Source of the DNA: Lachnospiraceae bacterium
GTDB lineage: Bacteria; Bacillota; Clostridia; Lachnospirales; Lachnospiraceae
Assembly: GCA_017543445.1 (NCBI GenBank)
Contig: JAFYGB010000035.1
Location: 1 to 33,645 of the forward strand
Reading direction: 5' to 3'
Length of the DNA stretch: 33,645 nucleotides
Under the pieces are notes generated by a model that saw nothing but the letters and a program-made list of their open reading frames with translations, ran no database searches and was not told where the DNA came from. Both the position numbers and the translations under genes were made by a program. Below are positions 9,267-24,631 of the stretch, piece after piece. Every line of letters begins with the position of its first letter. Within the stretch, counting starts at the first letter, position 1.

Positions 9267-9278
9267 TCGTGGCGGGAA

Positions 9279-9383: not shown

Positions 9384-9385
9384 GA

Positions 9386-9418
9386 ATGTGTCAATCGACG
9401 AGAGGTCGTTTGGCACAT
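9386..9418. repeat. 33-bp palindrome with the element's ends but another core
   Basis: Left end ATGTGTCAA and right end TTGGCACAT pair over 9 positions with one G-T pair, as in the repeat family, and the length is also 33. The middle is TCGACGAGAGGTCGT, itself a small palindrome, instead of the GAACCGTCCCC core. It follows a TATAAT by two bases, so it would lie at the start of the transcript. It is either a diverged member or an operator for this operon. Confidence 0.55.
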
Positions 9419-9440
9419 TCTTTTTGCGAGGAGTTATGAG

Positions 9441-10193: not shown

Positions 10194-10208
10194 TGAGGAA
10201 AATGTGAG

Positions 10209-11387
10209 ATGATACGATATTTGATCAAAAACAATTTCAAGATCATGTTCCGCAGTGCGGCGAATATCCTGATGCTGATCGTGGCGCCATTGGCCGTGAT
10301 CGCCGTGCTCTCCAGCGCATTTTCCGCGTTGATGGAGAGTTACGAGGACGTAGGAAGCATGAAGGTCGGTTACCGCATCGTGGATGAGGGGCTTTCGGAG
10401 CAGATGGAAGATGGCCTGAAGAAGGCGGCGACGCAGCAGGACATTCTGTTGATCGAGTACACAGATCAGGATCCGCAGGAACTCGTGCGATCCGAGAATC
10501 TGAGCGGCTTTGTAACGTTTGCGAAGGGCAGTTACACAGTATATGAAAATGAAGACCTGAAGGGCAATGGTCAGGCCTTGGAATACTTTATACACGCGGT
10601 GTACGAGCAGGTGGCCTTGCAGAATATGGAAATGACGAGGTCGCTTAGCTCATACCAGAGGTTTCCGGAGGAATCTTTATCTGATGATAGCAGTGAGACT
10701 GGTGAAGGCAGCGATCGAATCACAGAGTATCCCGTGAACGTGATCAATGACTACTCGGTGGTGAAGGCGGATCACATGCCGGCGGTCGACTCCACGGATT
10801 ATTATGGAATTATTTACATAGCGTATTTCAGCTGGTGTACCATCGTGTGCGGCGCGGGGCTGTTCTCAGCGGAGAAGAAGAATCGCATCGGCAATAAGCT
10901 GCGCGTTTCGGGAATCTCAGAATTCAAAGCCTATCTGGCAAAGTTCATTCCGCTGGTCCTGGTCGTGATCGCCGGCATGGCGGTAGCGACGGGGGCATCT
11001 ATAGTCCTCTTTGGAGTGCACTGGGGCTCGCCACTGTGGTCGTTCTTACTGGTTGCGATCGGCATCACGGCAGCGATGTCCTTCGGCCTGATGATCTACA
11101 CGATCTTCGACAATATGGTGATCACGGTCATTCTGGTTTTCATGGCGGTCTGGACCTGGGGCTTCCTGGGCGGCAGTTTTGAGACTTATCTGTTCTCGGA
11201 GATGTCGGCCTCCATTCAGCACCTGTCACCGATCTATTATCTGAACCGTTCCCTGATCGAATTATCCACCATGGGTGAGAGCGATTACGTGTGGCGTTCC
11301 TTGGCGATATCTGGCGCGATGACCGTGGTTTGCTCGGCACTCGCGGTATTTGCCGGAATGATCCGAAAGAGAGGTAAGAGAGCCTGA
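10209..11387 (+). CDS. ABC-2 type permease, subunit 1
   Basis: A 392-residue membrane protein with one N-terminal helix (about 20-42), a large external loop of about 170 residues and five C-terminal helices (from about 200), the ABC2_membrane_3 layout. The stop overlaps the start of the next permease by one base (TGATG), so the two subunits are coupled and probably form the channel together with the ATPase encoded upstream. GAGGA lies before the ATG. Confidence 0.85.
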   Translation: MIRYLIKNNFKIMFRSAANILMLIVAPLAVIAVLSSAFSALMESYEDVGSMKVGYRIVDEGLSEQMEDGLKKAATQQDILLIEYTDQDPQELVRSENLSGFVTFAKGSYTVYENEDLKGNGQALEYFIHAVYEQVALQNMEMTRSLSSYQRFPEESLSDDSSETGEGSDRITEYPVNVINDYSVVKADHMPAVDSTDYYGIIYIAYFSWCTIVCGAGLFSAEKKNRIGNKLRVSGISEFKAYLAKFIPLVLVVIAGMAVATGASIVLFGVHWGSPLWSFLLVAIGITAAMSFGLMIYTIFDNMVITVILVFMAVWTWGFLGGSFETYLFSEMSASIQHLSPIYYLNRSLIELSTMGESDYVWRSLAISGAMTVVCSALAVFAGMIRKRGKRA

Positions 11388-12703
11388 TGAGACCTTTAGT
11401 GAAATCAACGATGAAATTATTGCTCCGCATGAAGGGCTTCTGGTTCTTCCTTTTGATCACGCCGATCTTGTCGACGCTCGTCTTGAATACGAAGCAGAGC
11501 AACCTGTCTTATTACGAACGTTCCAACGTGAGCGATATGACCGAACTCGAACGGATCGACATAAAAGTCGCGTACTACGGCGGCAAGGGGAAATATGTGA
11601 TCAAGGTCTACGACGCCGCGCGGAGCGAGCTGTCCGAGTACTTGCTTCAGAACCTTTCGGAGAGCGGGCTGTTCCATGTGTGCCGTGTCGACCTGACCGA
11701 CGCAAAGATCCTCGCGGACAATGCGCTTTCGCCGGAGGATCCGGATCTTTCCGTTAAGTTGCAGGAGCTGGTAAATGCCCGGATCGAGGCAGATGGCTTC
11801 AGCGACCGTATGGGTGCCGCGATGTACATTTACCCCGAGTTTGATGAGAATCTGATCGATCTGAATCGTGAGAGTCTGAAGATCTACGAACTTTCGGAGG
11901 ATTCGCGGTCGGCGGCTTTGAGAATGGAACTTGATACGCAGATGCAGAAGTTGCGCAGTGCGTACCAGATCTCGCATAGCAATAGTGAAGCGCTCAGTTA
12001 CCTGGGGCGCGCGGACGCGGCGACACCGCAGAAGGAAGTCGTGACATTTTCCGCGGAAGGAAAGCGAAACCTGAGTATGACCCAGGTGGACCAGCGGACG
12101 CGCATGGGGTATGCGATGGCGATCCTGACGCTCGGTTACGTGTTCTGCGGACTGTTCGTGGCGCACATCGCGATCCACGAGCAGAATGACAGCGTGTATT
12201 TGCGCGTGCGGCTGGCCGGAGTGAACGTGTTCACCAACTTCCTGACGAAGGTCGTGACGGTGGTTTTCGTCACGCTGATGGTCTCGGCCGTGATGGGCGT
12301 GTGCAACCTGTTTCTGGACGTCGAGAGCATGGGCATTGACCGCGTGCACTTCCTGACGGTACTGACGCTCATGGGCCTGATCTTCAGTACTCTGAGCATG
12401 CTGCTCGGCATGATCGTCGGCGACGTCATGAGCTCGAATATTGCGGCATTTACCGTGTGGAGTGTGTCCTCCGTGCTCAGCGGCCTGTATTTCCCGATGG
12501 ATTATACGACCGACACGCTGAAAGTCCTCTCGGGACTCATGCCGCACAAATGGTTTCTGGACGGCGTCGAAATGATATTATTAGGTGACAAAACCGCCGT
12601 TCCTATGCTATTATGTGTTACAGTAGCATACCTGGTTGTCATAGGCAGCCTCGGCAGTCTCGGACTCAAAGTAAAGAGGGTGGACGAATGGGGGAACGCT
12701 TAA
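11387..12703 (+). CDS. ABC-2 type permease, subunit 2
   Basis: A 438-residue permease with the same plan as its neighbour: an N-terminal helix (about 12-30), an external domain of about 220 residues and six C-terminal helices beginning at MGYAMAILTLGYVFCGLFV. FPMDYTTDTLKVLSGLMPHKWFLDGV is near the last helices; the Pro and Trp there are usual in ABC-2 permeases. It overlaps the sensor kinase gene by 16 bases. Confidence 0.83.
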   Translation: MRPLVKSTMKLLLRMKGFWFFLLITPILSTLVLNTKQSNLSYYERSNVSDMTELERIDIKVAYYGGKGKYVIKVYDAARSELSEYLLQNLSESGLFHVCRVDLTDAKILADNALSPEDPDLSVKLQELVNARIEADGFSDRMGAAMYIYPEFDENLIDLNRESLKIYELSEDSRSAALRMELDTQMQKLRSAYQISHSNSEALSYLGRADAATPQKEVVTFSAEGKRNLSMTQVDQRTRMGYAMAILTLGYVFCGLFVAHIAIHEQNDSVYLRVRLAGVNVFTNFLTKVVTVVFVTLMVSAVMGVCNLFLDVESMGIDRVHFLTVLTLMGLIFSTLSMLLGMIVGDVMSSNIAAFTVWSVSSVLSGLYFPMDYTTDTLKVLSGLMPHKWFLDGVEMILLGDKTAVPMLLCVTVAYLVVIGSLGSLGLKVKRVDEWGNA

Positions 12704-13887
12704 GGGATAGGATCTTTTTGATCGTCCGAATGATCATAATGATCGCTTTTAGCATCTTCGGTTTTTCGAAGATGACGAAGCAGGAAACAGGAGTATCCGT
12801 AACGGTACTCCTGCTTGTTGCGTTTTTTATAGCGACCATGACGTTTTTGATATTATATAGTGCTTCTGCGGAAAATGTGTCGGGTAGTCATCATGTTTCA
12901 GGGGGCAATGGTTTGTCAAGCCGGAGGTTTTGGCTCGGGTGCCTGGCGCTTGCTTTAGGCGCGGGGTTTCTGGCGGCGCTGATCGCCATCGGTGGGCCGG
13001 CTTTTGTTTTGCTGGGTTACTACCTTGCTTTTGAAGCTCTGGCATTTTTCAAAGCACCGCTCGGCTTGTACGGTGTCGCTTTGTTTCTTTCGCTGATCCC
13101 GACGCCGGCCGGTTTCCTGACGCAGTTTTTGCTGATGATCATGATGGCGGCCTGCTATGTGCAACAGGCGTTCGTGGTCGAACCGTACCGTAAGCAGGTG
13201 CGCGAGGAGACGATCCTGGAGCAGGGTCTGAAGTCAGACATGGCGAGCCGTGAGCAGGCGGCGCGGGCGGAACTTAAGAAAAATATGCTCGCCGCGAGCA
13301 ACCAGATCCTGGAGGAGCGGTCGAACCTGGCGCAGGCCCTGCACGACAAATTGGGCCACAACATCAACGGTTCGATCTACCAGCTCGAGGCGATCAAGGT
13401 GCTTATGGATCGCGACCCCGAGAAGTCGCGGCAAATGACGCAGAACGTTATCGACCAGTTGCGGACGGGCATGGACGAGATCCGCGCCATTCTGCGAAAA
13501 GAGCGCCCAGAGAAGAAAGATCTTGCACTCTTGCAGATATACAAACTGTGCGAAGACTGCAATAATAAAGGCGTCGAGACGAACCTCGAGACCGAAGGCG
13601 ACATCAGCCAGATCAACGACAAACTCTGGGAAGTCATCCTGGACAATGCCTTCGAGGCCATTTCAAACTCGATGAAATACGCTAAATGTAAAAACATCCT
13701 GATCACGATCACGGTTTTGAATAAGTTTGTACGTTGCGTGATCCGGGATGATGGCATCGGTTGTCTGAACGTCAAGGATGGCATGGGCATCTCTGGCATG
13801 AAGATGCGCGTCCGCGCCGTGAACGGCACGCTGGATGTGTCGTCGGAGAACGGCTTCATCGTCAGCATGCTGCTGCCATGTGACTGA
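12688..13887 (+). CDS. NarL/DesK-type sensor histidine kinase
   Basis: A 399-residue membrane kinase. About five or six hydrophobic segments fill residues 10-165. A coiled region follows, then the HisKA_3 dimerisation box ALHDKLGHNINGSIYQLEA with the phospho-accepting His (about residue 220), an N-box LWEVILDNAFEAISNSMKYA and a G-box DDGIGCLNVKDGMGISGMKMR. The start at 12688 has GAGGG upstream and lies inside the end of the permease gene, suggesting coupling. The final codons (Cys, Asp and TGA) fall within a composite element. It probably senses the compound exported by, or envelope stress linked to, the ABC transporter; that is inference from gene order. Confidence 0.9.
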   Translation: MGERLRDRIFLIVRMIIMIAFSIFGFSKMTKQETGVSVTVLLLVAFFIATMTFLILYSASAENVSGSHHVSGGNGLSSRRFWLGCLALALGAGFLAALIAIGGPAFVLLGYYLAFEALAFFKAPLGLYGVALFLSLIPTPAGFLTQFLLMIMMAACYVQQAFVVEPYRKQVREETILEQGLKSDMASREQAARAELKKNMLAASNQILEERSNLAQALHDKLGHNINGSIYQLEAIKVLMDRDPEKSRQMTQNVIDQLRTGMDEIRAILRKERPEKKDLALLQIYKLCEDCNNKGVETNLETEGDISQINDKLWEVILDNAFEAISNSMKYAKCKNILITITVLNKFVRCVIRDDGIGCLNVKDGMGISGMKMRVRAVNGTLDVSSENGFIVSMLLPCD

Positions 13888-13933
13888 GTTGCAGATCTTT
13901 GATCTGCAACAGGGACGGTTCTGTTTGACACAT
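13878..13933 (-). repeat. Composite palindromic element 11
   Basis: A 56-bp unit with inner palindrome GTTGCAGATC-TTT-GATCTGCAAC (A-T version, like element 7). Includes the stop codon of the sensor kinase. Left outer arm ATGTGACTGA is partly degenerate. Confidence 0.9.
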
Positions 13934-13945
13934 TTTCGCGTTAGA

Positions 13946-13978
13946 ATGTGACAATGGGGACGGTTCTATTTGTCACAT
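13946..13978 (-). repeat. Simple palindromic element 12
   Basis: 33-bp unit, 12 bases after element 11, with ATGTGACAA/TTGTCACAT ends. The next gene's GGAGGG starts two bases after it. Confidence 0.92.
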
Positions 13979-13992
13979 TCGGAGGGAGATTT

Positions 13993-14619
13993 ATGGATAA
14001 GATTAAGGTTATAATCGCGGATGACAGTGATTTCGTACGTGATGGAATGAAGATCATTTTGGACGTGGACCCGGATTTCGAGGTGCTGGGGTGCGCCGCG
14101 AACGGGCGTGAGGCAATCGAACTTGCCGAAAAGGAGAAGCCCGACGTATTTTTGATGGACATTCAGATGCCTGTGATGGACGGGATCGAAGCTACGAAGA
14201 TCATTGCTGAACGCGGTCTGGGAAAGGTTTTGATATTGACCACGTTTGACGACGATGACCTGGTGAAGCGCGCCCTGAAGAACGGCGCGAAGGGGTATTT
14301 GATCAAGAATCACACGCCGGAGCATCTGAAGCAGATGATTAAATCTGTCTATAATGGGGCCGGCGTCATGGATGAAAATATACTGGAAACATTGGCCAAT
14401 CAATCTGCCTCGACGAGTTTTGAATTGGGAAATTATACGGAACGGGAGCTTGATATTATAAAGGCCGTGGCGGAAGGATTGTCCAATAAGGAGATCGCGG
14501 CGAAGTTGTTTATTTCTGAAGGGACAGTGAAGAACTACATCACGACCATCCTGGCAAAAGAAGGACTGTCGCACCGGACGGCATTGGCCGTATATTACCT
14601 CACGGGACGGAAGTCGTAA
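13993..14619 (+). CDS. NarL/FixJ-family response regulator
   Basis: A 208-residue regulator. The receiver domain (1-120) has the acidic pair IIADDSDFVR, phospho-acceptor Asp in FLMDIQMPVMDG (about residue 54), Thr in LILTTFDDDD and Lys in GYLIKNH. The C-terminal LuxR-type helix-turn-helix is TERELDIIKAVAEGLSNKEI...SEGTVKNYITTIL. Start at 13993 follows GGAGGG. It is the cognate partner of the upstream kinase and probably controls the ABC genes. Its TAA stop overlaps the next element by one base. Confidence 0.93.
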   Translation: MDKIKVIIADDSDFVRDGMKIILDVDPDFEVLGCAANGREAIELAEKEKPDVFLMDIQMPVMDGIEATKIIAERGLGKVLILTTFDDDDLVKRALKNGAKGYLIKNHTPEHLKQMIKSVYNGAGVMDENILETLANQSASTSFELGNYTERELDIIKAVAEGLSNKEIAAKLFISEGTVKNYITTILAKEGLSHRTALAVYYLTGRKS

Positions 14620-14675
14620 TGTGACAAACGGAACCGTCCCTGTTGCAGGTCCCTGACCTGCAACGAAAGGCACAT
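14619..14675 (+). repeat. Composite palindromic element 13
   Basis: A 57-bp unit; left arm ATGTGACAA, core GGAACCGTCCC, inner palindrome GTTGCAGGTC-CCT-GACCTGCAAC, right arm GGCACAT (one mismatch). Joined to the regulator stop codon as TAATG. Confidence 0.9.
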
Positions 14676-14688
14676 TGACATATTGTGG

Positions 14689-14724
14689 AATGCGGATCGC
14701 AGGGTTGCGGTCCGCATTTTTTTT
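14689..14724 (+). terminator. Intrinsic terminator of ABC/two-component operon
   Basis: A 13-bp stem, AATGCGGATCGCA (14689-14701) with TGCGGTCCGCATT (14706-14718), one G-T pair and loop GGGT, followed by a run of eight T (14717-14724). Confidence 0.93.
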
Positions 14725-14746
14725 GCTTTTAAAATAGCATGCGATA

Positions 14747-14755
14747 TGGTATAAT
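14747..14755 (+). promoter_or_regulatory. Extended -10 promoter
   Basis: TGGTATAAT at 14747-14755. TTTAAA at 14728-14733 is a weak -35 at 16 bases. It lies just after the terminator and before the relic gene, so it probably also drives the genes from 15341 onward. Confidence 0.55.
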
Positions 14756-14814
14756 TTAATATGGGAGTATGGAACCAAAGGAGAGGTGGAACGCTCCCTG
14801 TGAGAGGAATGAAA

Positions 14815-15268
14815 ATGAAGGAAATTTTGAGCCGATTGTTTCGGCAAGTCGGGCTCGGCGAGGTCGAGGGCGAGGTGCTTTCGGTCAGCGGCGGATGCTG
14901 CCGCCCATGTCGGCCATCAGCAACGACGACATGGATCCGAAGAACATCATGTGGGATGCGGGGCGCGCGCGCATGATCGACCTGGGCATTGGGTGGCGGT
15001 GAAGAGCGAAGCGCAGGGGCAGGGGCTGTCGAAGCCGCTGATCACGTACGTATTGAAGCGTTTGCTGGCATTGGGATACACGCATGTGAAACTGCATACG
15101 CAGACGTTGAGCTGGCTGGCCTGCAAGTTCTACTATGACCTCGGTTTCCGCCCGACGGCACAGAGCCTCACGGAGAATCGCTTCGGCTGGAAGATGGTGG
15201 AGTTGCTGACGGGCGTAAAATGTGTCTTCGTTGCAGGTGATACCTGCAACAGGGACGGTTCTGATTGA
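14815..15268 (+). pseudogene. Relic of an APH-family phosphotransferase joined to a GNAT relic
   Basis: Three coding pieces in three different frames. The first, about 14815-14893, begins MKMKEILSRLFRQVG and ends LSVSGG, like the N-terminus of small APH/choline-kinase proteins. The second, about 14893-14993, contains NDDMDPKNIMWDAG and MIDL, the Brenner box and metal-binding Asp region of that family, so about 130 or more middle residues are missing. The third, about 14993-15268, is a GNAT C-terminal half: VAVKSEAQGQGLSKPL (acetyl-CoA loop) and CKFYYDLGFRPT. Its reading frame runs on into a composite element, which supplies the stop. AGGA before 14815 remains. Two deletions with frame changes best explain the pattern. 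Confidence 0.8.
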
Positions 15269-15273
15269 CACAT
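15220..15273 (-). repeat. Composite palindromic element 14
   Basis: A 54-bp unit with inner palindrome GTTGCAGGT-GAT-ACCTGCAAC and outer right arm ATTGACACAT. Identical in sequence to element 17. It encodes the last residues (ending CNRDGSD and stop) of the GNAT relic frame. Confidence 0.92.
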
Positions 15274-15285
15274 CGAGATGGAAAA

Positions 15286-15318
15286 ATGTGACAAATGGAA
15301 CCGTCCCCACTGTCACAT
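15286..15318 (+). repeat. Simple palindromic element 15
   Basis: 33-bp unit, 12 bases after element 14, GTGACA stem version. Confidence 0.92.
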
Positions 15319-15340
15319 TACAAGAGGGGAGAAGCATATT

Positions 15341-15847
15341 ATGAAAGAAAATAAAGAGAATTCAGACTACCAGATCGTGAAGGCGACGGAAGCGGATCGC
15401 GAGGAGCTCCTGGCGCTATATCATGCGCAGCTCGGGCGGGAATTCTGCCCGTGGGTGGAGGACTATCCGGGCAATGATAACATCGACTGGGATCTGGAGC
15501 ACGATGCATTGTACGTAATGAAGAAAGACGGACGCATTGCTGCGACGATCTCGCTGGAGTTTGATGAGGAGGTTGATTCATTGGCATGTTGGGATCCGAA
15601 GCTGGAGCCTGCCGGCGCGCTCTCGCGCCTGGGGGTATTGCCCGAGTACCAACGTGCAGGCTATGGTAAGATCATGCTGCAGTTCGGCATGGATGAACTG
15701 AAGCGGCGCGGCTACCGCGGCCTTCATTTCCTGGTGATCCTGGGGAATAAGCCGGCGGTGCGTTGCTATGATGCGTTTGGTTTTAATATCGTTGGCGAAT
15801 GCGATTTGTGGGACAGACATTTCCTTTGCTACGAAAAAGAACTGTAA
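15341..15847 (+). CDS. GNAT family N-acetyltransferase
   Basis: A 168-residue single GNAT domain. LSRLGVLPEYQRAGYGKIML (about 88-107) is the acetyl-CoA binding motif A, and GNKPAVRCYDAFGFNIVGEC is the usual C-terminal motif B. Substrate unknown. Start at 15341 after GAGGGGAG. It is a complete domain, in contrast to the relic just upstream. A composite element begins one base after its TAA. Confidence 0.88.
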   Translation: MKENKENSDYQIVKATEADREELLALYHAQLGREFCPWVEDYPGNDNIDWDLEHDALYVMKKDGRIAATISLEFDEEVDSLACWDPKLEPAGALSRLGVLPEYQRAGYGKIMLQFGMDELKRRGYRGLHFLVILGNKPAVRCYDAFGFNIVGECDLWDRHFLCYEKEL

Positions 15848-15848
15848 A

Positions 15849-15904
15849 ATGTGTCAAATGGAACCGTCCCTGTTGCAGGTCACAGACCTGCAACGTAGAC
15901 ACAT
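15849..15904 (+). repeat. Composite palindromic element 16
   Basis: A 56-bp unit: ATGTGTCAAA, GGAACCGTCCC, inner palindrome GTTGCAGGTC-ACA-GACCTGCAAC, right arm AGACACAT. GGAGGGG of the next gene follows two bases later. Confidence 0.92.
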
Positions 15905-15917
15905 TCGGAGGGGCACT

Positions 15918-16796
15918 ATGACGATAAGAGAAGCAAGAGAGATTGCAAGACGTTTCGATGAAAGAAAGAAATTGACCGATGAAGACGTGTTCATGTTCAC
16001 GGAGGCGATGAGTTTCCTGGTCAATGAATTGCACGATCCGAGGGACATGATGCACCTCGGCGGGTACTACTATGAGATCAAAAAGTTCGATCTGGCGCTG
16101 AAGTATTACGAGATGGCGGCGACGTACGATTATGACCCGGCCTACGAGTGTCTCGGTTATATTTGGTATTACGGGCGGACCGGCGAGCGCGATTTCAAGA
16201 AGGCGTTCGAGTATTTCTCCAAGTTGATGGAGAAGGGCGACCCCGTCGCTACTTATAAGGTCGCCGACATGTATAAGAACGGCTACTATGTTGAGAAGAA
16301 TCAGCAGAAATATGAGGAGATCATCGAGAAACTGTACCTGGAAGTGAAGAACATGGACGATCCGTTCGACCCGATCCCCGAAGTGTTCACGCGCCTCGCG
16401 AGGATCCGCATTGACCAGGGAAAGAAGGACGAGGCGATCGATCTGTACTCGTATGCGAAGGAAGTCCTGGCGATCCGAATTAAATATAATGCATTCTTCG
16501 GCAATCTGAACATCATGAAGTGGCTGATCGACGATTTGTATAAACTGGTCGACTTTGATGTGAAGAACTTTGATTTCTTCGACATGTACTACCTGCTCAC
16601 GAGCCCGCATAAGATCACGTTTATGTATCGCGGGCGGAAGCAGGAGCTGGAGTCCGTTGTGGAGGACGGCGAGTGCCACGTTTGCTTTAACGGAAAATGG
16701 TTCCGTAGCCGCGACGACTTCTACAAAGACGCATGTATCGACGACGTTCATTTGACTGCGATTCACGAAAATATGTTCGACTTCACGGTAGAGTAA
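15918..16796 (+). CDS. SEL1/TPR-like repeat protein
   Basis: A 292-residue soluble protein. Residues about 45-165 hold helix pairs of the SEL1/TPR type: DMMHLGGYYYEIKKFDLALK, YECLGYIWYYGRTGERDFKK and TYKVADMYKNGYYVEKNQQK. A further helical pair is RLARIRIDQGKKDEAIDLY. The C-terminal 100 residues are not recognised; they include ECHVCFNGKWFRSRDDFYKD. It probably mediates protein contacts; no partner is evident. Start at 15918 follows GGAGGGG, since an upstream extension would cross the repeat. Confidence 0.78.
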   Translation: MTIREAREIARRFDERKKLTDEDVFMFTEAMSFLVNELHDPRDMMHLGGYYYEIKKFDLALKYYEMAATYDYDPAYECLGYIWYYGRTGERDFKKAFEYFSKLMEKGDPVATYKVADMYKNGYYVEKNQQKYEEIIEKLYLEVKNMDDPFDPIPEVFTRLARIRIDQGKKDEAIDLYSYAKEVLAIRIKYNAFFGNLNIMKWLIDDLYKLVDFDVKNFDFFDMYYLLTSPHKITFMYRGRKQELESVVEDGECHVCFNGKWFRSRDDFYKDACIDDVHLTAIHENMFDFTVE

Positions 16797-16797
16797 A

Positions 16798-16851
16798 ATG
16801 TGTCTTCGTTGCAGGTGATACCTGCAACAGGGACGGTTCTGATTGACACAT
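16798..16851 (-). repeat. Composite palindromic element 17
   Basis: A 54-bp copy identical to element 14, beginning one base after the TAA of the SEL1-like gene. Confidence 0.92.
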
Positions 16852-16863
16852 CGAGAGAGAAAA

Positions 16864-16896
16864 ATGTGACAAAGAGAACCGTCCCCATTGTCACAT
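16864..16896 (+). repeat. Simple palindromic element 18
   Basis: 33-bp unit, 12 bases after element 17; perfect ends. AGGAGG of the next gene starts four bases later. Confidence 0.92.
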
Positions 16897-16908
16897 CGAA
16901 GGAGGAAA

Positions 16909-17733
16909 ATGAAAAATCAGGTTTTGGTTTCCACGGGCGCGTTGATCGGGCGGCCGAATGGGAGAGACTACAGATTATTGAAAGAGTTTGCCCGGCAGCT
17001 AGACTGCGATGGCTTTGAGTTCATGATGTACAGCGACTGGTACGAGAAGATCCCGGATATCGTGGAGTTTCTACGCGCGAACGGCATTTCGACGCCGCTG
17101 TATCATTGCCAGAAGAGCATCGGCGAGGGCATCAGCAAGGGTGGCGAAGATTTTGAGAAGGCGATCGAGAACTTCCGAATCAATGCGCAGATGGCACATG
17201 ATATCGGCGCTGGGAAGATGGTCATGCACCTGTGGGACGGTATAACGTCGGATGCATTTTTCGATAATAACATCAAGGCATATCCGATCGTGCGGGAGAT
17301 CGCAGACGCGTGCGGCGTGGAACTGCTGATCGAGAATGTGGTTTGCAATCAGAAGGATCCGATGACGCATTGGAGCGAGCTGGCGAAACTTTTCCCCGAC
17401 ATCAAGTTCATATTTGATACGAAGATGGCGGCTTTTCACGGACAGTTGGAGCTTCTGTATGATCCGGCAAATGAATGGCTGTGGAAGGAGGGACACATTC
17501 GCCACTACCATGTGAACGACTACGCCGGCGGCATCAAGGACTGGGCGAATTTGAGGACGCTTCCGATCGGTGCCGGGCACATTGATTTCGAGCGGTTTTT
17601 CGCGTTCGTTCGAAGCACTGGGTATGAAGAGCATTTCACGCTCGAGTCGACTGCATTCAACAAAGAAGGCGTGGTCGACATCGAGATGCTGAACCGACAG
17701 GTGGAATGTGTCAAAGAGAACCGTCCCTGTTGA
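16909..17733 (+). CDS. Sugar phosphate isomerase/epimerase-like TIM barrel
   Basis: A 274-residue protein of the xylose isomerase-like TIM barrel group (AP endonuclease 2 superfamily). Likely metal ligands and signature loops: LLIENVVCNQ (Glu), KFIFDTKMAAFHGQ (Asp, His), RHYHVNDYAGG (His-x-Asp) and HFTLESTAF (final Glu). The actual sugar substrate cannot be read from sequence. AGGAGG precedes the ATG at 16909. The last eight residues, CVKENRPC, and the stop lie in a repeat element, so the native end of the gene is lost. Confidence 0.82.
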   Translation: MKNQVLVSTGALIGRPNGRDYRLLKEFARQLDCDGFEFMMYSDWYEKIPDIVEFLRANGISTPLYHCQKSIGEGISKGGEDFEKAIENFRINAQMAHDIGAGKMVMHLWDGITSDAFFDNNIKAYPIVREIADACGVELLIENVVCNQKDPMTHWSELAKLFPDIKFIFDTKMAAFHGQLELLYDPANEWLWKEGHIRHYHVNDYAGGIKDWANLRTLPIGAGHIDFERFFAFVRSTGYEEHFTLESTAFNKEGVVDIEMLNRQVECVKENRPC

Positions 17734-17737
17734 CACA
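17706..17737 (+). repeat. Palindromic element 19, composite core without inner palindrome
   Basis: ATGTGTCAAAGAGAACC, then GTCCCTGTTGACACA. The CCCTGTTG junction is that of composite units, but the inner palindrome is absent, leaving a 32-33-base unit. It sits inside coding sequence: the isomerase stops within it and an orphan open stretch follows. Confidence 0.85.
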
Positions 17738-17873
17738 CTACGCCCCAGACTTCGGGTTGGCGGATTTCGAGAGGATCGTGCGATGGATGCCGTACATCGT
17801 GGAGATGGAATTTGAAGGAGAAGAATTAGTAGGCGTGCGCGAGCTGGCGCACGTAGACAAAACACGAAAATGA
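17735..17873 (+). pseudogene. Orphan C-terminal coding stretch
   Basis: In the frame starting at 17735 an open stretch of 45 codons plus stop reads HYAPDFGLADFERIVRW, then MPYIVEMEFEGEELVGVREL and AHVDKTRK. Codon usage looks like that of the neighbours, but there is no start codon or ribosome binding site. I do not recognise the protein. It looks like the end of a gene whose front was deleted when element 19 arrived, or the displaced end of the isomerase gene. Confidence 0.45.
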
Positions 17874-17889
17874 AGAGAGGGGTTGAATT

Positions 17890-19092
17890 ATGGTTTATTA
17901 TCAGGATGGGAAGCTGACCATTCGAAGTATGGAGGCGGGTGATCCGCAGGTCATTTACGATACATATATGACCTACGGCTGGCACCCGCAAATCGAATAT
18001 TATCAAAATTACATGAAGGAAGAACAGCTCGGCGAGCGCCTGACGTTTATCGCCGTGTGGGAGGGCGCCGTTGTGGGCCTGTGTACGCTGGTCCTGCATC
18101 CGAAGGAGGGCCCGTGGGCCGGCGGCGATTACCCCGAGATCGTGGACCTCGCTGTTTTCTATCATGTGCATAATCTCGGCATTGGCAACAAACTTCTGGA
18201 TGTTGCGGAGACGGAGGCTGCGAAACGCGCGGACATGGTCTTCCTGGCCGTGGGCGTGCACTCGGGTTACGGCCCCGCGCAGCGCATCTATGCGAAGCGC
18301 GGCTACATTCCGGATGGCAGCGGCGTCTGGTATCAAGGTAAGGTGCTGGATCAGTATGCGCCTTGCGTGAATGACGACGACCTGCTACTGTTCCTGTCGA
18401 AAAATGTGTCTGAGTTGCAGGTGAGACCTGCAACAGGGACGGTTCCATCTGACACATATTCCGATACCCTCGATTGGTATCGGGACCATGCAGAGGCGTT
18501 TATCGCCAATACGCAAGAGGCGGATATTTCGTCGCTTTATGAAGCTTTCATGGAGCATTTGCCGGAAAATGCACGCGTACTCGACCTAGGCTGCGGCGCC
18601 GGCAACGCTTCTTTGTACTTTGCGAATGCCGGGTATTCGGTCCTGGCCGTGGATGGTTGCCGGGAATTCTGCGACTACACGCATGACCGCGTCGGCTGTC
18701 CGGTGCGCTGCATCCGCTTTGATGAATTGGATTATGAGGCGGAATTCGACGGCGTCTGGGCCTGTGCGTCGCTCTTGCACGTGAGTAAGAACGAACTTCC
18801 GGGCATCCTGCGCCGCATTTCCCGCGCACTGAAGCCGGGCGGCATCTTCTATGCGTCCTTCAAGTATGGGGATGGAGAACGCATTCGAGACGGAAGAGCA
18901 TTTTCCGATTTCACTGAGGAGTCGCTGCGTGAGTTGCTGGATGCGACGGGCGGTTTTGCGGTGACTTCGCTTGGGATGACGCAGGATGTGCGCCCCGGCC
19001 GCGCTGACGAACGCTGGGTCAATGTGTTCTGCGTAAAGGAATGTGTCAACCGTTGCAGGTCTTCGACCTGCAACAAGGACGGTTCTGATTGA
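17890..19092 (+). CDS. GNAT acetyltransferase-methyltransferase fusion linked by a repeat
   Basis: A 400-residue product. Residues 1-171 are a GNAT domain (LAVFYHVHNLGIGNKLLDV as motif A, RIYAKRGYIPDGSGVWY near its end). Residues 172-189 are encoded exactly by composite element 20, read NVSELQVRPATGTVPSDT. Residues 190-385 are a class I SAM methyltransferase: YSDTLDWYRDHAEAFI, motif I RVLDLGCGAGNASLYF (about 229-244), ACASLLHVSKNELPGIL and the LKPGG loop. The last 16 residues, ending CNKDGSD, come from element 21. The methyltransferase half has no start codon or ribosome binding site of its own, so the element seems to have joined two former genes. Activities of both halves are inferred from motifs; substrates are unknown. 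Confidence 0.85.
   Translation: MVYYQDGKLTIRSMEAGDPQVIYDTYMTYGWHPQIEYYQNYMKEEQLGERLTFIAVWEGAVVGLCTLVLHPKEGPWAGGDYPEIVDLAVFYHVHNLGIGNKLLDVAETEAAKRADMVFLAVGVHSGYGPAQRIYAKRGYIPDGSGVWYQGKVLDQYAPCVNDDDLLLFLSKNVSELQVRPATGTVPSDTYSDTLDWYRDHAEAFIANTQEADISSLYEAFMEHLPENARVLDLGCGAGNASLYFANAGYSVLAVDGCREFCDYTHDRVGCPVRCIRFDELDYEAEFDGVWACASLLHVSKNELPGILRRISRALKPGGIFYASFKYGDGERIRDGRAFSDFTEESLRELLDATGGFAVTSLGMTQDVRPGRADERWVNVFCVKECVNRCRSSTCNKDGSD
18404..18457 (-). repeat. Composite palindromic element 20, in frame inside a gene
   Basis: A 54-bp unit, 18 codons. Inner palindrome GTTGCAGGT-GAG-ACCTGCAAC; outer arms ATGTGTCTGA and TCTGACACAT. No stop codon in the frame used. Confidence 0.93.
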
Positions 19093-19097
19093 CACAT
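19040..19097 (-). repeat. Composite palindromic element 21
   Basis: A 58-bp unit with inner palindrome GTTGCAGGTC-TTC-GACCTGCAAC. It supplies the C-terminus and TGA of the fusion gene. AGGAG of the next gene follows five bases later. Confidence 0.92.
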
Positions 19098-19113
19098 TAA
19101 CAAGGAGTAGAAA

Positions 19114-19923
19114 ATGAGTATTAGTGATAAAAACACGGTTGAGAAGCAGTACAATACGTCGAATCATTTGAATACGAGGATATCGATTCACGATAAGTAT
19201 TCGACGAACAAACAAGGATTTGGTAATTGGATCACGTCGCATTATGACATCCGGGAAGGCATGAAGGTGCTGGAACTGGGGTGCGGCACGGGAAGCATGT
19301 GGGTCGGAAAAGGCGAGCTGGTTGCGAAGTGTTCGCAGCTCATTCTTTCGGATTTTTCAGCGGGAATGCTTGAGCAGACGAAGAGTACATTGGCCGATCT
19401 CGAGGGAATCGAGTATCAGGTGATCGACATTCAAAACATTCCGTATGCGGATCAGACGTTTGATGTGGTCATCGCCAATATGATGCTGTATCATGTTCCG
19501 GACTTGGAGCGCGGTTTGCGCGAGGTGCGCCGCGTTCTGAAGGAAGACGGGACGTTTTACTGCGCGACGTACGGCGAGAATGGTATCATGGAGTACATCT
19601 ATGGTCTGTTTGAGAAGTATGACGTGAAGGCCTCGCCGAACCATGCATTTACCATGCAAAACGGCGCGGACAAATTGGGAAATGTTTTTGACGAAGTCAA
19701 GAGATTCAATTATGAGGACGCTCTTGAGGTGACGAACTTCGATGACATGGCAGACTATGTTTATTCATTGGCCGGCATGTCCGGACTGGAAAATGTGTCG
19801 CGGGAAACGATGCTTCAAGTGCTGAATGAAAATGCGGTGGATGGCGTGCTGCGCGTTCCAAAGGATTATGGAATGTTTACCGCAAAAAGTGTCAAACGGA
19901 ACCGTCCCTGTTGCAGGTCGTGA
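19114..19923 (+). CDS. Class I SAM-dependent methyltransferase
   Basis: A 269-residue methyltransferase of the UbiE/Methyltransf_11 type. Motif I is KVLELGCGTGSMWVGKG (about 51-67), motif II DVVIANMMLYHVPDLER (about 115-131) and the post-II LKEDGTFYCATYGENG. Substrate unknown. AGGAG before ATG at 19114. The last 11 residues, SVKRNRPCCRS, and the stop are encoded by element 22. It is not a close copy of the methyltransferase half of the upstream fusion. Confidence 0.88.
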   Translation: MSISDKNTVEKQYNTSNHLNTRISIHDKYSTNKQGFGNWITSHYDIREGMKVLELGCGTGSMWVGKGELVAKCSQLILSDFSAGMLEQTKSTLADLEGIEYQVIDIQNIPYADQTFDVVIANMMLYHVPDLERGLREVRRVLKEDGTFYCATYGENGIMEYIYGLFEKYDVKASPNHAFTMQNGADKLGNVFDEVKRFNYEDALEVTNFDDMADYVYSLAGMSGLENVSRETMLQVLNENAVDGVLRVPKDYGMFTAKSVKRNRPCCRS

Positions 19924-19941
19924 CCTGCAACGAAGACACAT
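19888..19941 (+). repeat. Composite palindromic element 22
   Basis: A 54-bp unit: AGTGTCAAAC, GGAACCGTCCC, inner palindrome GTTGCAGGTC-GT-GACCTGCAAC, right arm AGACACAT. The first bases of the left end are altered. It contains the upstream stop codon and is followed by CCAGGAGG. Confidence 0.9.
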
Positions 19942-19955
19942 TCCAGGAGGATAAA

Positions 19956-21500
19956 ATGACAGAGAGAATTGGAATTATATCCGATGTGCACGGGAATCTG
20001 CCGGCGTTTACGGCCGTGCTGGAGGATGCGAAAGCGCGTGGCATCGGGCAGTTCGTGATCGCGGGGGATTATTGTTTAAGCGGGGCGTGGCCGGACGGCT
20101 GCATCGAGAAGCTTAAAAACCTTCCGAACGCCCACATCATCCGGGGCAATGAAGAGCGCTACCTGGAGAATTTGATCGGGAAGGATCAGAGCACCTGGAC
20201 GGATGGCCAGATGCAGATCTCGTATTGGAATTACCGAAATATCCGCAAGGAAAACCTGGATTATGTTCTGAACTTGCCGCACACGATCGACTATGTGTGT
20301 AATGGCGTGAGCATTCATGTAGCGCATGCATCCGACGCATTCCTCGGGGAGTGCGAGTTCGGAAAATTCGGGCCCGCGCTTCTGGCGAAGCAGTATGCGG
20401 AAGTAGAAGTTACGCCCGAAATGCTGCATGACGACATCCATAAACTTCTGGATAATGATCCGGAAGTACAAAATAAATTGAAAAATATGCCGGAAGGAGT
20501 TTACATCTTCGGTCATTCCCATGTACAATGGAGTTATCAAGCGAAAGATAAGAATGTGTGGTTAGTAAATCCTGGTTCCTGTGGCCTGCCGCTGGATTGC
20601 ATCCGTGGCAGCGTTCCCTACGACATATTGTCGATCACGGATGCCGGAGAGGTTCAGCTGGAGGAAGTGCGAGTTACATTTTCCAAGGAAGCCTATGTGG
20701 AGCAGTTGAAGCAGACGACGCAGTTTACACAGGCACGGGTCTGGACAGAAGTGATCTTTCGGGAATTATTGACCGCGCAAGAGCACTTGACGTTCTTTTT
20801 ACAATTTGCCGAGCAATACGCGCAGAAGATCGGGGACACAAGGCGTCCTTATTGCGTAGAGACGTGGGAGGCAGCCTATGAATCCTGGGCACGCGAGCAA
20901 AATGTGTCAAATGGAACCGTCCTTGTTGCAGGTCAAAGACCTGCAGCGGTTGACACATTCCTGGAGATGCATCCGGGGTTTTTCGAGCGGGACTACGTGC
21001 GCGAGCGCGGGGACGAAGTAGCATCCGAAATGATGCTGGCGCTAAGGAAGTTCGACGAAGGATGCTACGTAAAAACATATCCGGAGAACGTTACCTTCGG
21101 ATATTATAACGGCAGTCTTGAGGAACTGAAAAAAGCGGTGGCGGAGGTGATCCCGCACTGGGTGGATTTCTTCAGTGAGAAGTCACGGGTGTATTGTGGG
21201 TTTATCGACGGAGAGATCGCCTGCTTCTGCATAATCGAGAATTTCGGCGAGCACGAAGTGAATGGCGAGACATGGAAGATCGGCGGCCCCGGATGTGTCG
21301 GAACATTGCCCGCGTACAGAAACCGAGGGTTGGGCCTCACGATGGTGAAGCATGTTACGAAGATCCTTCAGGACGAGGGTTACACACATAGTTATATACA
21401 CTTTACGTACGAGGTCGGATGGTACGCGAAGCTGGGGTATAAGACGTTTCTTCGGTGGAACGGCCGCGGCGTCGTGTGGACCGGTGAGATGGATTCATAA
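19956..21500 (+). CDS. Metallophosphoesterase-GNAT fusion linked by a repeat
   Basis: A 514-residue product. Residues 1-315 are a calcineurin-like phosphoesterase of the YfcE/ApaH type with the metal motifs ISDVHGN, VIAGDYC, IIRGNEE, HVAHASD and FGHSHVQ. Residues 316-334 are encoded by composite element 23, read NVSNGTVLVAGQRPAAVDT. Residues 335-514 are a GNAT domain with GPGCVGTLPAYRNRGLGLTM as acetyl-CoA loop and YEVGWYAKLGYKTF near the end. Start at 19956 follows CCAGGAGG. The GNAT half lacks its own start and ribosome binding site. No known pathway needs these two activities in one chain, so the fusion is probably accidental. Confidence 0.85.
   Translation: MTERIGIISDVHGNLPAFTAVLEDAKARGIGQFVIAGDYCLSGAWPDGCIEKLKNLPNAHIIRGNEERYLENLIGKDQSTWTDGQMQISYWNYRNIRKENLDYVLNLPHTIDYVCNGVSIHVAHASDAFLGECEFGKFGPALLAKQYAEVEVTPEMLHDDIHKLLDNDPEVQNKLKNMPEGVYIFGHSHVQWSYQAKDKNVWLVNPGSCGLPLDCIRGSVPYDILSITDAGEVQLEEVRVTFSKEAYVEQLKQTTQFTQARVWTEVIFRELLTAQEHLTFFLQFAEQYAQKIGDTRRPYCVETWEAAYESWAREQNVSNGTVLVAGQRPAAVDTFLEMHPGFFERDYVRERGDEVASEMMLALRKFDEGCYVKTYPENVTFGYYNGSLEELKKAVAEVIPHWVDFFSEKSRVYCGFIDGEIACFCIIENFGEHEVNGETWKIGGPGCVGTLPAYRNRGLGLTMVKHVTKILQDEGYTHSYIHFTYEVGWYAKLGYKTFLRWNGRGVVWTGEMDS
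20902..20958 (+). repeat. Composite palindromic element 23, in frame inside a gene
   Basis: A 57-bp unit, 19 codons. Inner palindrome GTTGCAGGTC-AAA-GACCTGCAGC (one mismatch); core GGAACCGTCCT with one change from consensus. No stop in the frame used. Confidence 0.92.
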
Positions 21501-21564
21501 CGATGTCTTGATATGAGACGTCGCAGAATAAATGGTTACACAAAAAACAGATAGGAGAAAAACC

Positions 21565-22698
21565 ATGGAGAAAAGAAGATTTGAAAAATTGGGCATCGAT
21601 GTTTCATTGTTGGGGTTCGGTTGTATGAGATTGCCCGTTTCCGGAGACGGAAAGATCGACCGACCCATGGCGGAAAAAATGCTGGATAAGGCGATCGCGG
21701 CCGGGGTCAATTATATCGACACGGCGTACCCTTACCACGGCGGCGAGAGCGAGTTGTTCGTCGGCGAGGCGCTGAAGAAGTACCCGCGCGACTCGTACTA
21801 TTTGGCGACGAAGCTGCCCGTTTGGTTCGTGAACACAGTCGAGGATGTCGACAAATATTTCAATGAGCAGCTTAAGAAACTGCAGGTGGACCATTTTGAT
21901 TTTTACCTGATGCATGCCATGAACCGCGGAAGCTGGCGGAAAATGGTGGAGATCGGATGCGTAAAGAGACTTGAAGAACTGAAAGCCGAAGGTAAGATCC
22001 GCTTCTTAGGCTTCTCGTTCCACGACAGCTACGAAGCGTTTGAAGAGATCATCAACTACAGAGACTGGGACTTCTGCCAGATCCAGCTCAACTATATGGA
22101 TATCGACGAGCAGGCCGGCATGAAGGGATACAAGCTCGCGGAGGAAAAGGGCATTCCGCTCACCATCATGGAGCCGATCAAGGGCGGTTCCCTGGCGAAA
22201 TTCTCCGACGACATCATGGAAGTTTTCGACAGCGTGCGCCCCGGTAAGAGCGCGGCTTCGTTTGCCCTGCGCTACGTGGCGACTCTGCCGAACATCCTGA
22301 CGGTGCTGAGCGGCATGTCCACGATGGAGCAGGTCGAGGATAACCTGGACACATTTACCGATTTCGTACCCATGGAAGAGAAGGAGTACGAGGCGATCGA
22401 CACGATCAAAAAGATCATGAACAGCAGGATCCAGAACGGCTGCACCGGCTGCCGGTACTGCATGCCTTGCCCGTTTGGTGTGGATATCCCCGGTAACTTC
22501 AGTGTTTGGAACCGCTACCATATGTATCAGAATTTTGATGTCGTTAAGTGGCAGTGGGAAGGCATGGAACGCGACGGCAAGACCGCGAAGAGTTGCAAAG
22601 AGTGCGGAAAATGCGAGAAGGCTTGCCCGCAGCTTCTGCGGATCCGCGAAGATCTCAAGAAAGCATTGGCCGATCTGACAAAGGCGGCGGAAGACTAA
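21565..22698 (+). CDS. Aldo/keto reductase with C-terminal 4Fe-4S domain
   Basis: A 377-residue oxidoreductase. The aldo/keto reductase barrel (1-275) begins FEKLGIDVSLLGFGCMRLP and has the tetrad Asp and Tyr in NYIDTAYPYHGGESE, Lys in YYLATKLPV and His in FDFYLMHAM. The C-terminus carries two cysteine clusters, CTGCRYCMPCPFG and CKECGKCEKACP, for iron-sulfur clusters. This fusion is common in anaerobic Firmicutes and is probably an NAD(P)H- or ferredoxin-linked reductase of unknown substrate. TAGGAG precedes the ATG. The TAA overlaps the next element (TAATG). Confidence 0.92.
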   Translation: MEKRRFEKLGIDVSLLGFGCMRLPVSGDGKIDRPMAEKMLDKAIAAGVNYIDTAYPYHGGESELFVGEALKKYPRDSYYLATKLPVWFVNTVEDVDKYFNEQLKKLQVDHFDFYLMHAMNRGSWRKMVEIGCVKRLEELKAEGKIRFLGFSFHDSYEAFEEIINYRDWDFCQIQLNYMDIDEQAGMKGYKLAEEKGIPLTIMEPIKGGSLAKFSDDIMEVFDSVRPGKSAASFALRYVATLPNILTVLSGMSTMEQVEDNLDTFTDFVPMEEKEYEAIDTIKKIMNSRIQNGCTGCRYCMPCPFGVDIPGNFSVWNRYHMYQNFDVVKWQWEGMERDGKTAKSCKECGKCEKACPQLLRIREDLKKALADLTKAAED

Positions 22699-22730
22699 TG
22701 TGACAACAGGGACGGTTCCAATTGACACAT
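22698..22730 (-). repeat. Simple palindromic element 24, mixed arms
   Basis: A 33-bp unit with left arm ATGTGACAA (GTGACA version) and right arm TTGACACAT (GTGTCA version), so the stem is mismatched in the middle. It overlaps the reductase stop codon by one base. First of a minus, plus, plus triplet. Confidence 0.9.
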
Positions 22731-22742
22731 TCGGCGGTAAAA

Positions 22743-22775
22743 ATGTGTCAAAGAGAACCGTCCCCATTGACACAT
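22743..22775 (+). repeat. Simple palindromic element 25
   Basis: 33-bp unit, GTGTCA stem version with perfect ends, 12 bases after element 24. Confidence 0.92.
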
Positions 22776-22787
22776 TCCAAGGCAAAA

Positions 22788-22820
22788 ATGTGACAAAAAG
22801 AACCGTCCCCATTGTCACAT
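22788..22820 (+). repeat. Simple palindromic element 26
   Basis: 33-bp unit, GTGACA stem version, 12 bases after element 25. Last member of the family in this window. Confidence 0.92.
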
Positions 22821-22823
22821 CTG

Positions 22824-22832
22824 TGGTATAAT
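22824..22832 (+). promoter_or_regulatory. Extended -10 promoter of c-di-GMP cluster
   Basis: TGGTATAAT at 22824-22832, four bases after element 26. The -35 position falls inside element 26 and has no match to TTGACA, so the extended -10 would have to carry recognition. Transcription would start near 22839. Confidence 0.55.
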
Positions 22833-22885
22833 AGGGGTGGGGGTATGGCAATGAACGGCTGGCGGCCGGCTTAGGAGGATTCTAC

Positions 22886-24631
22886 ATGGTCATAGCATAT
22901 TACCAGATCCTGTTTGTTCTTTCAATTCTTCTGACATTGTTGTACATAATGACGTGGCATAAGCATTTTGATGTGCATGTTACGCTGATCTTTACGATGG
23001 TCCCGATCGCGATCCTGGGTAACCTGATGACGGCGAATGCTTCGAACCTGTCGGAGGCGATCCTCGCGAATAAGATCACGTATTTCGGTGGCACGTTTTT
23101 GATGCTTATGATCACGCTGGCCATTTTGCAGCTTTGCGATTTCCGTGTGCCGCGGTGGCTGCGGTTTGCGATGTTTGCGGCCAGTACGTTGACTTTCTTT
23201 GGTGCATTGACGGTGGGACGCAACCAGTGGTTCTATAAGTCCGTAGATTTTGCGAAGAAGAATGGAGCCGCCTGGCTGACGGATAAGAAGTACGGTCCGT
23301 TCCACACGGTTTTCGTGGCACTCGTTCTGGCGTATTTCGCCATCAGTTTCGCTGCCATGCTTTACAGTGCGGTACGGAAGAAGAACGTGCCGAATAAGAT
23401 CATCCTGTTGATGTATATTCCGGAGATGGTTGCGGTGATCACCTTCTACGGTGTGCGCACCATCATTACCCCGCAGGTGGAACTGCTGCCGGTCGCGTAT
23501 GTGTTCGCGCAGATCATGTACCTGATCATCATTCACCAGGTCTGCCTCTACGATATCACGGACTCCGGCATCGACACGATGGTCCAGTCCGGCGACAAGG
23601 GCTTTGTTTCCTTCGACTTTAAGCGACGCTACCTCGGATGTAACGAGACTGCGCTCGGGATCTTCCCCGAACTTGCAGAGGCGAAGGTCGATAAGATCCT
23701 TCCTGAAAAAACATCGGTGTCGGAGCAGGTGAACCGCTGGCTCGACACCTTTGAAAACGATAATACACAGAATTCATTTCGCTATCACTATGGCGATAAC
23801 AGCTATCTGGTCACATTGACCCATCTGTACGACGGAAAACGTAAGGGAGGCTACCAGTTCTTCCTGGCGGACGACACGAAACGGCAGAAATATATCGAAC
23901 TGATCAATAACTTCAATATGCGCCTGAAAGAACAGGTCGCTGAGAAGACACAGCACATCGAGGAGATGCACGAGAAACTGGTCCTCGGTATGGCGACCAT
24001 GGTTGAAAGTCGTGATAATTCGACCGGTGGTCATATTCGTCGTACGAGCGAGGGCGTCCGCATGCTTACGGATGAGATCCGCAAGGACGATTCCCTGAAT
24101 CTTACGGACGATTTCATCAAAAATGTCATCAAGGCAGCGCCCATGCACGATCTCGGTAAGATCGCGGTCGATGACGTGATCCTGCGTAAGCCGGGGCGTT
24201 TCGAACCTTGGGAGTTTGAGAAGATGAAGGCGCACGCAAAGGAAGGCGCGCGTATCGTCCATGCGATCCTGGAAGGAACGGACGATGTGGAATTCCACGA
24301 GATCGCGGAAAATGTTGCACATTACCATCACGAACGCTGGGACGGTTCGGGTTATCCCGAAGGCCTGAAGGGGGAGGAGATCCCGCTGGAGGCACGCATC
24401 ATGGCGATCGCCGATGTGTACGATGCGCTTGTAAGCAAGCGAGTATATAAAGACAGCATGCCGTTTGATAAGGCAAATGCCATCATCATGGAGGGCATGG
24501 GAACGCAGTTCGATCCGCAGTTAGAGAAGTACTACGTGGTTGCGCGCCCGCGCCTGGAGGCTTACTATAGCGAGCAGGAAGCCGTCGCGGACGGTTCCGG
24601 ATTGATCGGTGAAGGCATGTGTAAGAAATAA
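22886..24631 (+). CDS. Membrane HD-GYP domain protein
   Basis: A 581-residue protein. About six or seven helices fill residues 1-215 in the pattern of the histidine-kinase 7TM sensor region. A PAS-like stretch (about 225-330) and a coiled region follow, then an HD-GYP domain (about 350-560) with HIRRTSEG, the HD pair APMHDLGKIAVDD, and the GYP segment YHHERWDGSGYPEGLKGEEI. These are the metal and GYP residues of active c-di-GMP phosphodiesterases. Likely role: hydrolysis of c-di-GMP in response to a membrane signal. TTAGGAGG precedes the ATG. A GGDEF gene follows after 35 bases. Confidence 0.9.
   Translation: MVIAYYQILFVLSILLTLLYIMTWHKHFDVHVTLIFTMVPIAILGNLMTANASNLSEAILANKITYFGGTFLMLMITLAILQLCDFRVPRWLRFAMFAASTLTFFGALTVGRNQWFYKSVDFAKKNGAAWLTDKKYGPFHTVFVALVLAYFAISFAAMLYSAVRKKNVPNKIILLMYIPEMVAVITFYGVRTIITPQVELLPVAYVFAQIMYLIIIHQVCLYDITDSGIDTMVQSGDKGFVSFDFKRRYLGCNETALGIFPELAEAKVDKILPEKTSVSEQVNRWLDTFENDNTQNSFRYHYGDNSYLVTLTHLYDGKRKGGYQFFLADDTKRQKYIELINNFNMRLKEQVAEKTQHIEEMHEKLVLGMATMVESRDNSTGGHIRRTSEGVRMLTDEIRKDDSLNLTDDFIKNVIKAAPMHDLGKIAVDDVILRKPGRFEPWEFEKMKAHAKEGARIVHAILEGTDDVEFHEIAENVAHYHHERWDGSGYPEGLKGEEIPLEARIMAIADVYDALVSKRVYKDSMPFDKANAIIMEGMGTQFDPQLEKYYVVARPRLEAYYSEQEAVADGSGLIGEGMCKK

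Follow-up and report, generated by a model that had tools for sequence, protein, structure and literature searches.

A REP-like repeat as the probable in-frame linker of two enzyme fusions in a Lachnospiraceae genome

In-frame insertions of Rickettsia palindromic elements (RPEs) into genes have been described (PMC10969869, PMC2229807), and nearly half of the RPEs of R. conorii, which are ~150 bp long, lie in open reading frames (ORFs) (PMC10969869). In the ERIC/RU-1 group, an RU-1 copy at the 3′ end of ECA3499 has apparently eliminated the stop codon and extended the protein (PMC2759123). Di Nocera et al. 2013 reported GTAG/CGTC REPs inside ORFs, as well as REP termini that give stop codons, and suggested that insertions in flexible linkers or loops are possibly neutral (PMC3733652). 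The portions of these papers used here thus already describe repeats read in frame, repeats that form C-terminal tails and REPs inside genes, as insertions or tails. What appears to be new at the locus presented here is a repeat that constitutes all of the linker joining two domains whose genes are separate in relatives, in two instances within 3 kb; a literature search by title and abstract opening returned no report of two genes having been fused by a REP or MITE.

The locus lies in a contig of a Lachnospiraceae bacterium, and the whole 33,645-nucleotide stretch analysed is hereafter called the window. Its repeats resemble REP/REPIN sequences and their RAYT (TnpA-REP) transposases in being short palindromes in tens of copies, single and as inverted pairs, at gene 3′ ends, some of which supply the stop codon, and in that inverted copies bracket an IS200-like Y1 transposase gene in relatives. 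They differ in that no GTAG end tag was seen, the arms enclose a conserved core (GGGGACGGTTC), an additional hairpin is present in the composite form, no PF01797 gene was found in the window's genome and two copies join separate domains. With RPEs they share a palindrome read in frame within a protein. However, RPEs occur inside many genes and their host is Rickettsia, whereas here 2/249 element clusters lie in coding sequence, each at a two-domain junction, and the nearest named GNAT records are from uncultured Clostridiales and Lachnospiraceae; the element is also shorter (54–57 bp versus the ~150 bp given in the portion of PMC10969869 used). As in ERIC/RU-1 and similar MITE-ORF fusions, stop codons occur inside elements (29/249 clusters), but RU-1 ends its protein, whereas translation here would continue into a second enzyme domain. 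Finally, Di Nocera et al. describe REPs inserted into single genes, Firmicutes are not among the phyla named in the part of their paper used, and its CGTC repeats are described there as having no flanking transposase gene (PMC3733652).

The first fusion, ORF 17890–19092, runs for 400 codons without interruption in the contig and is made up as follows.

17890..18402, + strand: GNAT acetyltransferase domain of the fusion ORF, residues 1–171 (PF00583)
18404..18457, + strand: 54-bp composite palindromic element, the linker of the first fusion (palindrome and genome-wide composite matches)
18458..19041, + strand: SAM-dependent methyltransferase (MTase) domain without its own recognisable start codon or ribosome binding site (PF13649)
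19042..19096, + strand: next composite element, from which the fusion ORF takes its C-terminal tail (...CVNRCRSSTCNKDGSD) and its stop (contig reading)

Pfam placed Acetyltransf_1 at residues 30–139 and Methyltransf_25 (class I methyltransferase) at residues 230–318. The first base of the element is base 2 of codon 172 (18403–18405) and its last is base 1 of codon 190; it is worth 18 codons and encodes the peptide NVSELQVRPATGTVPSDT. The open ORF and the Pfam domains bear out the preliminary description of this locus, made from the sequence alone, in which the 54-bp unit supplied 18 in-frame codons between a GNAT and a SAM methyltransferase. As GNAT homology ends at about residue 171–173 and MTase homology begins at about residue 190–195 (fusion numbering), the element is the entire linker of this ORF. 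From the element onwards, the ATG, GTG and TTG codons in the MTase frame are GTG173, TTG176 and GTG178, with ATG221 next. These in-frame GTG and TTG codons would allow two proteins to be made from the open frame, with the MTase arising by internal initiation in the element (GTG173, TTG176, GTG178) or by re-initiation. We regard this as very improbable, since no Shine-Dalgarno-like sequence was seen by eye within 20 bases upstream of any of the four codons, and a start at ATG221 would remove residues that are invariant in the MTase family (Y197, T208, F220). The earlier statement that the MTase domain has neither start codon nor ribosome binding site therefore holds, with no usable start seen among the four. 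Tryptic peptides predicted for the fused product include NVSELQVR and PATGTVPSDTYSDTLDWYR.

In relatives, the two domains are encoded separately. No match covering both was found at E 0.001 or better in 60 other genomes, no GNAT-MTase fusion, with or without an element, was present among 7 genome_contigs loci, and among 37 loci collected (flanks up to 1.5 or 4 kb) both domains occurred only in the window's own locus (L001). GNAT orthologues, whose identity to the fusion's GNAT ranged from ~95% (L031) down to 57% (L006), reach a stop codon 3 (L031, L032, L028), 4 (L033, L034, L035), 5 (L006) or 6 (L037) residues past the last pre-element residue, L028 and L037 being partial orthologues at contig ends. 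Most MTase relatives align from residue 190–195 in fusion numbering, and 15/18 are stand-alone with a plausible start, as judged by eye and with several frames extending open further upstream; the others are a NUDIX-fused protein (L010), a weak HTH-fused match (L029) and a 202-aa frame (L027). The separate orthologues that the preliminary description had proposed to look for thus exist, with GNATs that stop 3–6 residues on and MTases that mostly look stand-alone.

The same GNAT also takes part in fusions that contain no element: it is joined to a second GNAT in G001 (L004), G003 (L003) and G005 (L005), and in G004 (L031) a P-loop protein is fused at its N-terminus. Fusion of this GNAT domain is, as read from these sequences, common in the genus, and the element is not required for it, because four sister genomes achieve it without one. 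Of the earlier proposal that the element turned two genes into one, the separate existence of the parts in relatives stands in support, but the element-free fusions of the same GNAT weaken it, and the element may be incidental to the fusion. GNAT and MTase genes adjacent but unfused, with or without an element between them, were found in no genome examined, which leaves insertion between neighbours, recombination and insertion into a fusion that already existed indistinguishable.

A second in-frame case, absent from the preliminary description, lies on the same contig 2.5 kb away. ORF 19956–21500 encodes a metallophosphoesterase-element-GNAT protein (Pfam); the mechanical ORF list starts it at TTG 19911, and ATG 19956 is taken here.

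19956..20901, + strand: metallophosphoesterase domain of the second fusion (PF12850/PF00149; ATG at 19956)
20902..20958, + strand: 57-bp composite element in opposite orientation, the linker of the second fusion, read as NVSNGTVLVAGQRPAAVDT (contig reading)
20959..21500, + strand: GNAT domain of the second fusion (Pfam, relatives)

Its phosphoesterase is stand-alone in G001 (L051), G002 (L052) and G004 (L053). Its GNAT corresponds to the C-terminal half of a protein with two GNAT domains in G001, G002, G003 and G005, and is stand-alone in G038 and G043. The partner, N-terminal half of that two-GNAT protein is present in the window's genome (G000) as a stand-alone gene with its own stop at C50:65266, and no element was seen in the surrounding 3.6 kb. 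Homology of both parts of the second fusion reaches both element edges. Both linker elements (18404–18457 and 20902–20958) can be read without a stop in the frame of the preceding gene and lead, in frame and without further linker, directly into a domain for which no start of its own is recognisable.

These edges bear on the possibility that a GNAT-MTase fusion came first and that the element was inserted later into its linker, in the manner of RPEs and intragenic REPs. REPs inside genes are documented, at least in the part of PMC3733652 used, and element-free fusions exist for the same GNAT (L003, L004, L005, L031) and for a related MTase (the NUDIX-MTase L010), which suggests that these bacteria readily form fusions without an element. 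We nevertheless think this order of events unlikely, as insertion into a linker would usually leave some of it behind and both fusions lack any appreciable stretch of other linker next to the element, and as neither the 60 other genomes nor the 7 genome_contigs loci hold a GNAT-MTase fusion.

The element at 18404–18457 is an imperfect palindrome with outer arms ATGTGTC/GACACAT, an inner 9-bp hairpin (GTTGCAGGT/ACCTGCAAC) and the core GGGACGGTTCC. Its RNA fold has a free energy of −22.9 kcal/mol (z −3.1; 2/200 shuffles as stable). Exact matches to the composite form across 61 genomes numbered 20 in the window's own genome (a draft of 2.64 Mb in 83 contigs, 93% complete), 3 in G002, 2 in G004 and 0 in the other 58; the linker element is one of the 20, and 10/20 fall in the window's contig, which holds 15 clusters of the repeat family. 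The repeat core had 145 matches in this genome versus 5 for a reversed control pattern, a frequency far above chance, and 29–76 matches in each of five sister genomes. Counts of GAACCGTCCCY were 28–129 in the six genomes of the genus, 107 in G039 and 0–3 in the other 14 searched. Three matches to the composite core in viral_contigs were rejected as element copies, the palindrome being absent from all 3.

To which family the element belongs is suggested by its neighbours in relatives. IS200-like Y1 transposase genes (PF01797) were present in 10/21 genomes. Among 12 such loci fetched, 4 (G002, G003, G005, G039) were bracketed by inverted element cores and 8 were without a copy. The transposase of G005 matched the NCBIfam model REP_Tyr_transpos (REP-associated tyrosine transposase; E 1.6e-11), with a score of 44.3 bits that is below the cut-off of 80. 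Beside the four RAYT-type genes the core GGGGACGGTTC was constant while the palindrome arms differed between genomes (GTGACA in G002 and G003, TGGCA/TGCCA in G005, GATACAA in G039). Across L043, L044, L046 and L047, the same core with differing arms looks as if arms and transposase change together. Inverted element pairs occur as -+ and -++ clusters, e.g. at window positions 3811, 15252 and 22709. In copies inspected by eye, no GTAG stood at the palindrome foot, and CGTC lay inside the core ACCGTCCC, between the arms and not at the end. We read the repeat family as REP-like, with a RAYT-type transposase in relatives; it is called REP-like rather than assigned to REP/RAYT in the strict sense, because no PF01797 match, i.e. 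no RAYT, was found in the window's genome (93% complete) and the GTAG tag was not seen. RPEs, named as the precedent in the preliminary description, serve only as an analogy, given the inverted cores that bracket an IS200-like transposase in four relatives. This gives a clostridial repeat family a likely transposase partner in relatives.

Element positions were then compared with gene ends in six genomes. Core sites fetched (144/145 in G000, 236/236 in G001–G005) gave 288 clusters, 249 of which were genuine by the arm rule. With gene calls from a simple codon score trained on G000, so that stop-position counts are approximate, the called stop lay inside the element in 29 of the 249 clusters, at most 12 bp before it in 89, at 13–100 bp in 46 and at 101–300 bp in 17, and 68 had no called 3′ end within 300 bp. 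Random intergenic 54-nt intervals from the same loci (n = 20,000) gave 6.3%, 4.3%, 15.8%, 20.4% and 53.3% for the same classes. A stop inside the element or at most 12 bp before it was therefore seen for 47% of the clusters versus 6.3% + 4.3% of random intervals, and the enrichment lies mainly in the 12 bp past the stop (36% versus 4%). Elements preferentially lie at the 3′ ends of genes, where some of them provide the stop codon.

Coding sequence contained 2/249 clusters, both in the window and forming the first and second fusion. Four had been flagged inside a called gene, and two of these (L253, L266) were rejected as mis-called starts, plausible starts coming after the element. Over all 288 clusters, 155 frames ran uninterrupted across the cluster, with 30 aa or more to either side; 14/155 had a codon score of at least 0.05 on both sides, two of them the window's fusions. 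Other in-frame candidates were also rejected: L113, L200, L250, L234, L085, L275, L203, L208, L175, L281, L204 and L243 have no element arms and look like chance 11-mers in ordinary genes; L168 and L280 are armless; L248 has arms, but its scores are weak (0.09 and 0.02) and it looks non-coding by eye; L079 and L098 look antisense by eye; and in L109 and at window position 15860, flagged at a looser margin, an ATG follows the element. Averaged over 24 composite copies (including 3 measured too short at 35 nt because the pattern caught the inner hairpin), 1.3 of the three reading frames were open on one strand and 2.4 on the opposite strand. Since composite copies are often open and one third of downstream frames fit, chance in-frame joining is plausible.

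Within the window, elements occupy 13/18 boundaries between called genes from 3056 to 22886, all genes lying on one strand (counted by eye). Elements near the two fusions include the following.

15218..15327, no strand assigned: element pair between two GNAT coding regions, which are one element-free open frame in G001:C21 (contig and G001 comparison)
17707..17737, no strand assigned: simple element over the 3′ end of the upstream TIM-barrel gene; tail ...CVKENRPC and stop (contig reading)
19886..19944, no strand assigned: composite element between the second MTase gene and the phosphoesterase, overlapping the MTase 3′ end (contig reading)

The sister contig G001:C21 (6 kb fetched) is compact: gnat_a and gnat_b are followed by the genes for the TIM barrel, the phosphoesterase and the aldo/keto reductase, and then by the gene that lies at 22886 in the window, by eye that of an HD-type protein. 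These 6 kb contain a single genuine element cluster, which follows the reductase. The window keeps this order, and its junctions hold elements and extra genes (an ORF ending at 16796, GNAT::MTase, the second MTase and the second GNAT). Six contig genes, three on each side of the first fusion, are collinear with G001:C21, and G002:C84 likewise has GNAT, second MTase and phosphoesterase in this order, interspersed with other genes. In G001, gnat_a and gnat_b are one open frame without an element, with gnat_b preceded by ATG and a Shine-Dalgarno-like sequence and the contig beginning within gnat_a; in the window, the pair at 15218–15327 separates them and gives the stop. From window 14951–15847 against L166 1–773, the element seems to split GNAT coding regions as well as join them.

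Further features of the contig were observed. The G001 TIM-barrel 3′ end (L166 1590–1630; ...KKNRPY stop) resembles an armless element core where window 17707–17737 has a full element, and may be either a decayed copy or a coincidence. The first GNAT (14951–15268) matches only the later part of Pfam profiles, and in the stretch 14680–15268 the sequence before it may hold a disrupted N-terminal half. Two adjacent genes at 4900–8057, with a 4-base overlap, carry the Walker-type motifs GPNQGGKTT and GANQGGKST, and we take their translations to be reminiscent of MutS-like ATPases. A direct repeat (33461–33518 and 33588–33645; 58 nt, 98% identical), whose second copy ends at the contig end, may be where the assembly stopped.

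The conserved gene order also bears on an assembly or sequencing artefact, in which an indel masks a stop codon or unrelated sequences have been joined at a repeat. Assemblies are notoriously prone to false joins at short repeats, this one is a draft in 83 contigs, and each element has an A-run at its 5′ edge (AAAAA at 18400–18404, AAAA at 20899–20902). Against this, an undetected stop would not give the MTase the start codon that it lacks, in-frame joining is seen twice independently, and gene order is shared with G001:C21 around the first fusion and with G002:C84; we put little weight on an artefact.

Taken on its sequence context, the arrangement is probably best explained by a REP-type element, whose core flanks an IS200-like, RAYT-type transposase gene in relatives, that has become an accidental in-frame interdomain linker. 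At the 3′ end of the GNAT gene, insertion of the element or recombination with it would have removed the GNAT stop; the element's far end would have been joined to the MTase coding sequence just inside its start, and the element would then be read through into an in-frame domain to give the fusion. Because the start codon was lost in both fusions, insertion alone would be insufficient and deletion or recombination would be needed, and recombination between element copies appears to be the simplest route for this loss. A broader reading, which we advance tentatively and think rather less probable, is that REP-type elements in the genus are swap points for protein domains, with copy-copy recombination repeatedly joining and splitting enzyme domains, as elements are placed at stop codons and many of their reading frames are open. 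GNAT::MTase and phosphoesterase::GNAT would then be joins, and the two GNAT regions, continuous in a single open frame in G001, would be a split.

The product of the first fusion is predicted to be one ~45-kDa protein with two separately folding domains on a flexible, element-coded tether. With MTase relatives, AlphaFold gave mean pLDDT values of 92–98 for blocks over residues 191–380, and values below 50 for residues 148–186 and for the tail (388–396 and 398–400). With GNAT relatives, block means were 67–95 for residues 1–120 and 47–58 for 121–170, and values were below 50 for 171–300. Each model had an alignment for one domain only and carries no information on relative domain placement. The MTase retains glycines G234, G236 and G238, and departs from its family at columns that are at least 90% conserved in a 17-sequence alignment (S237A, R239N, D240A, S257C), for which reason a working bifunctional enzyme is not assured. 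The tether is most likely near neutral, and any gain from 1:1 co-expression would be secondary.

Two neighbouring cases would give a concrete, testable route from a tiny mobile repeat to multidomain proteins. If the elements are indeed swap points, a non-autonomous mobile repeat would drive domain shuffling in this genus and itself become the linker peptide.
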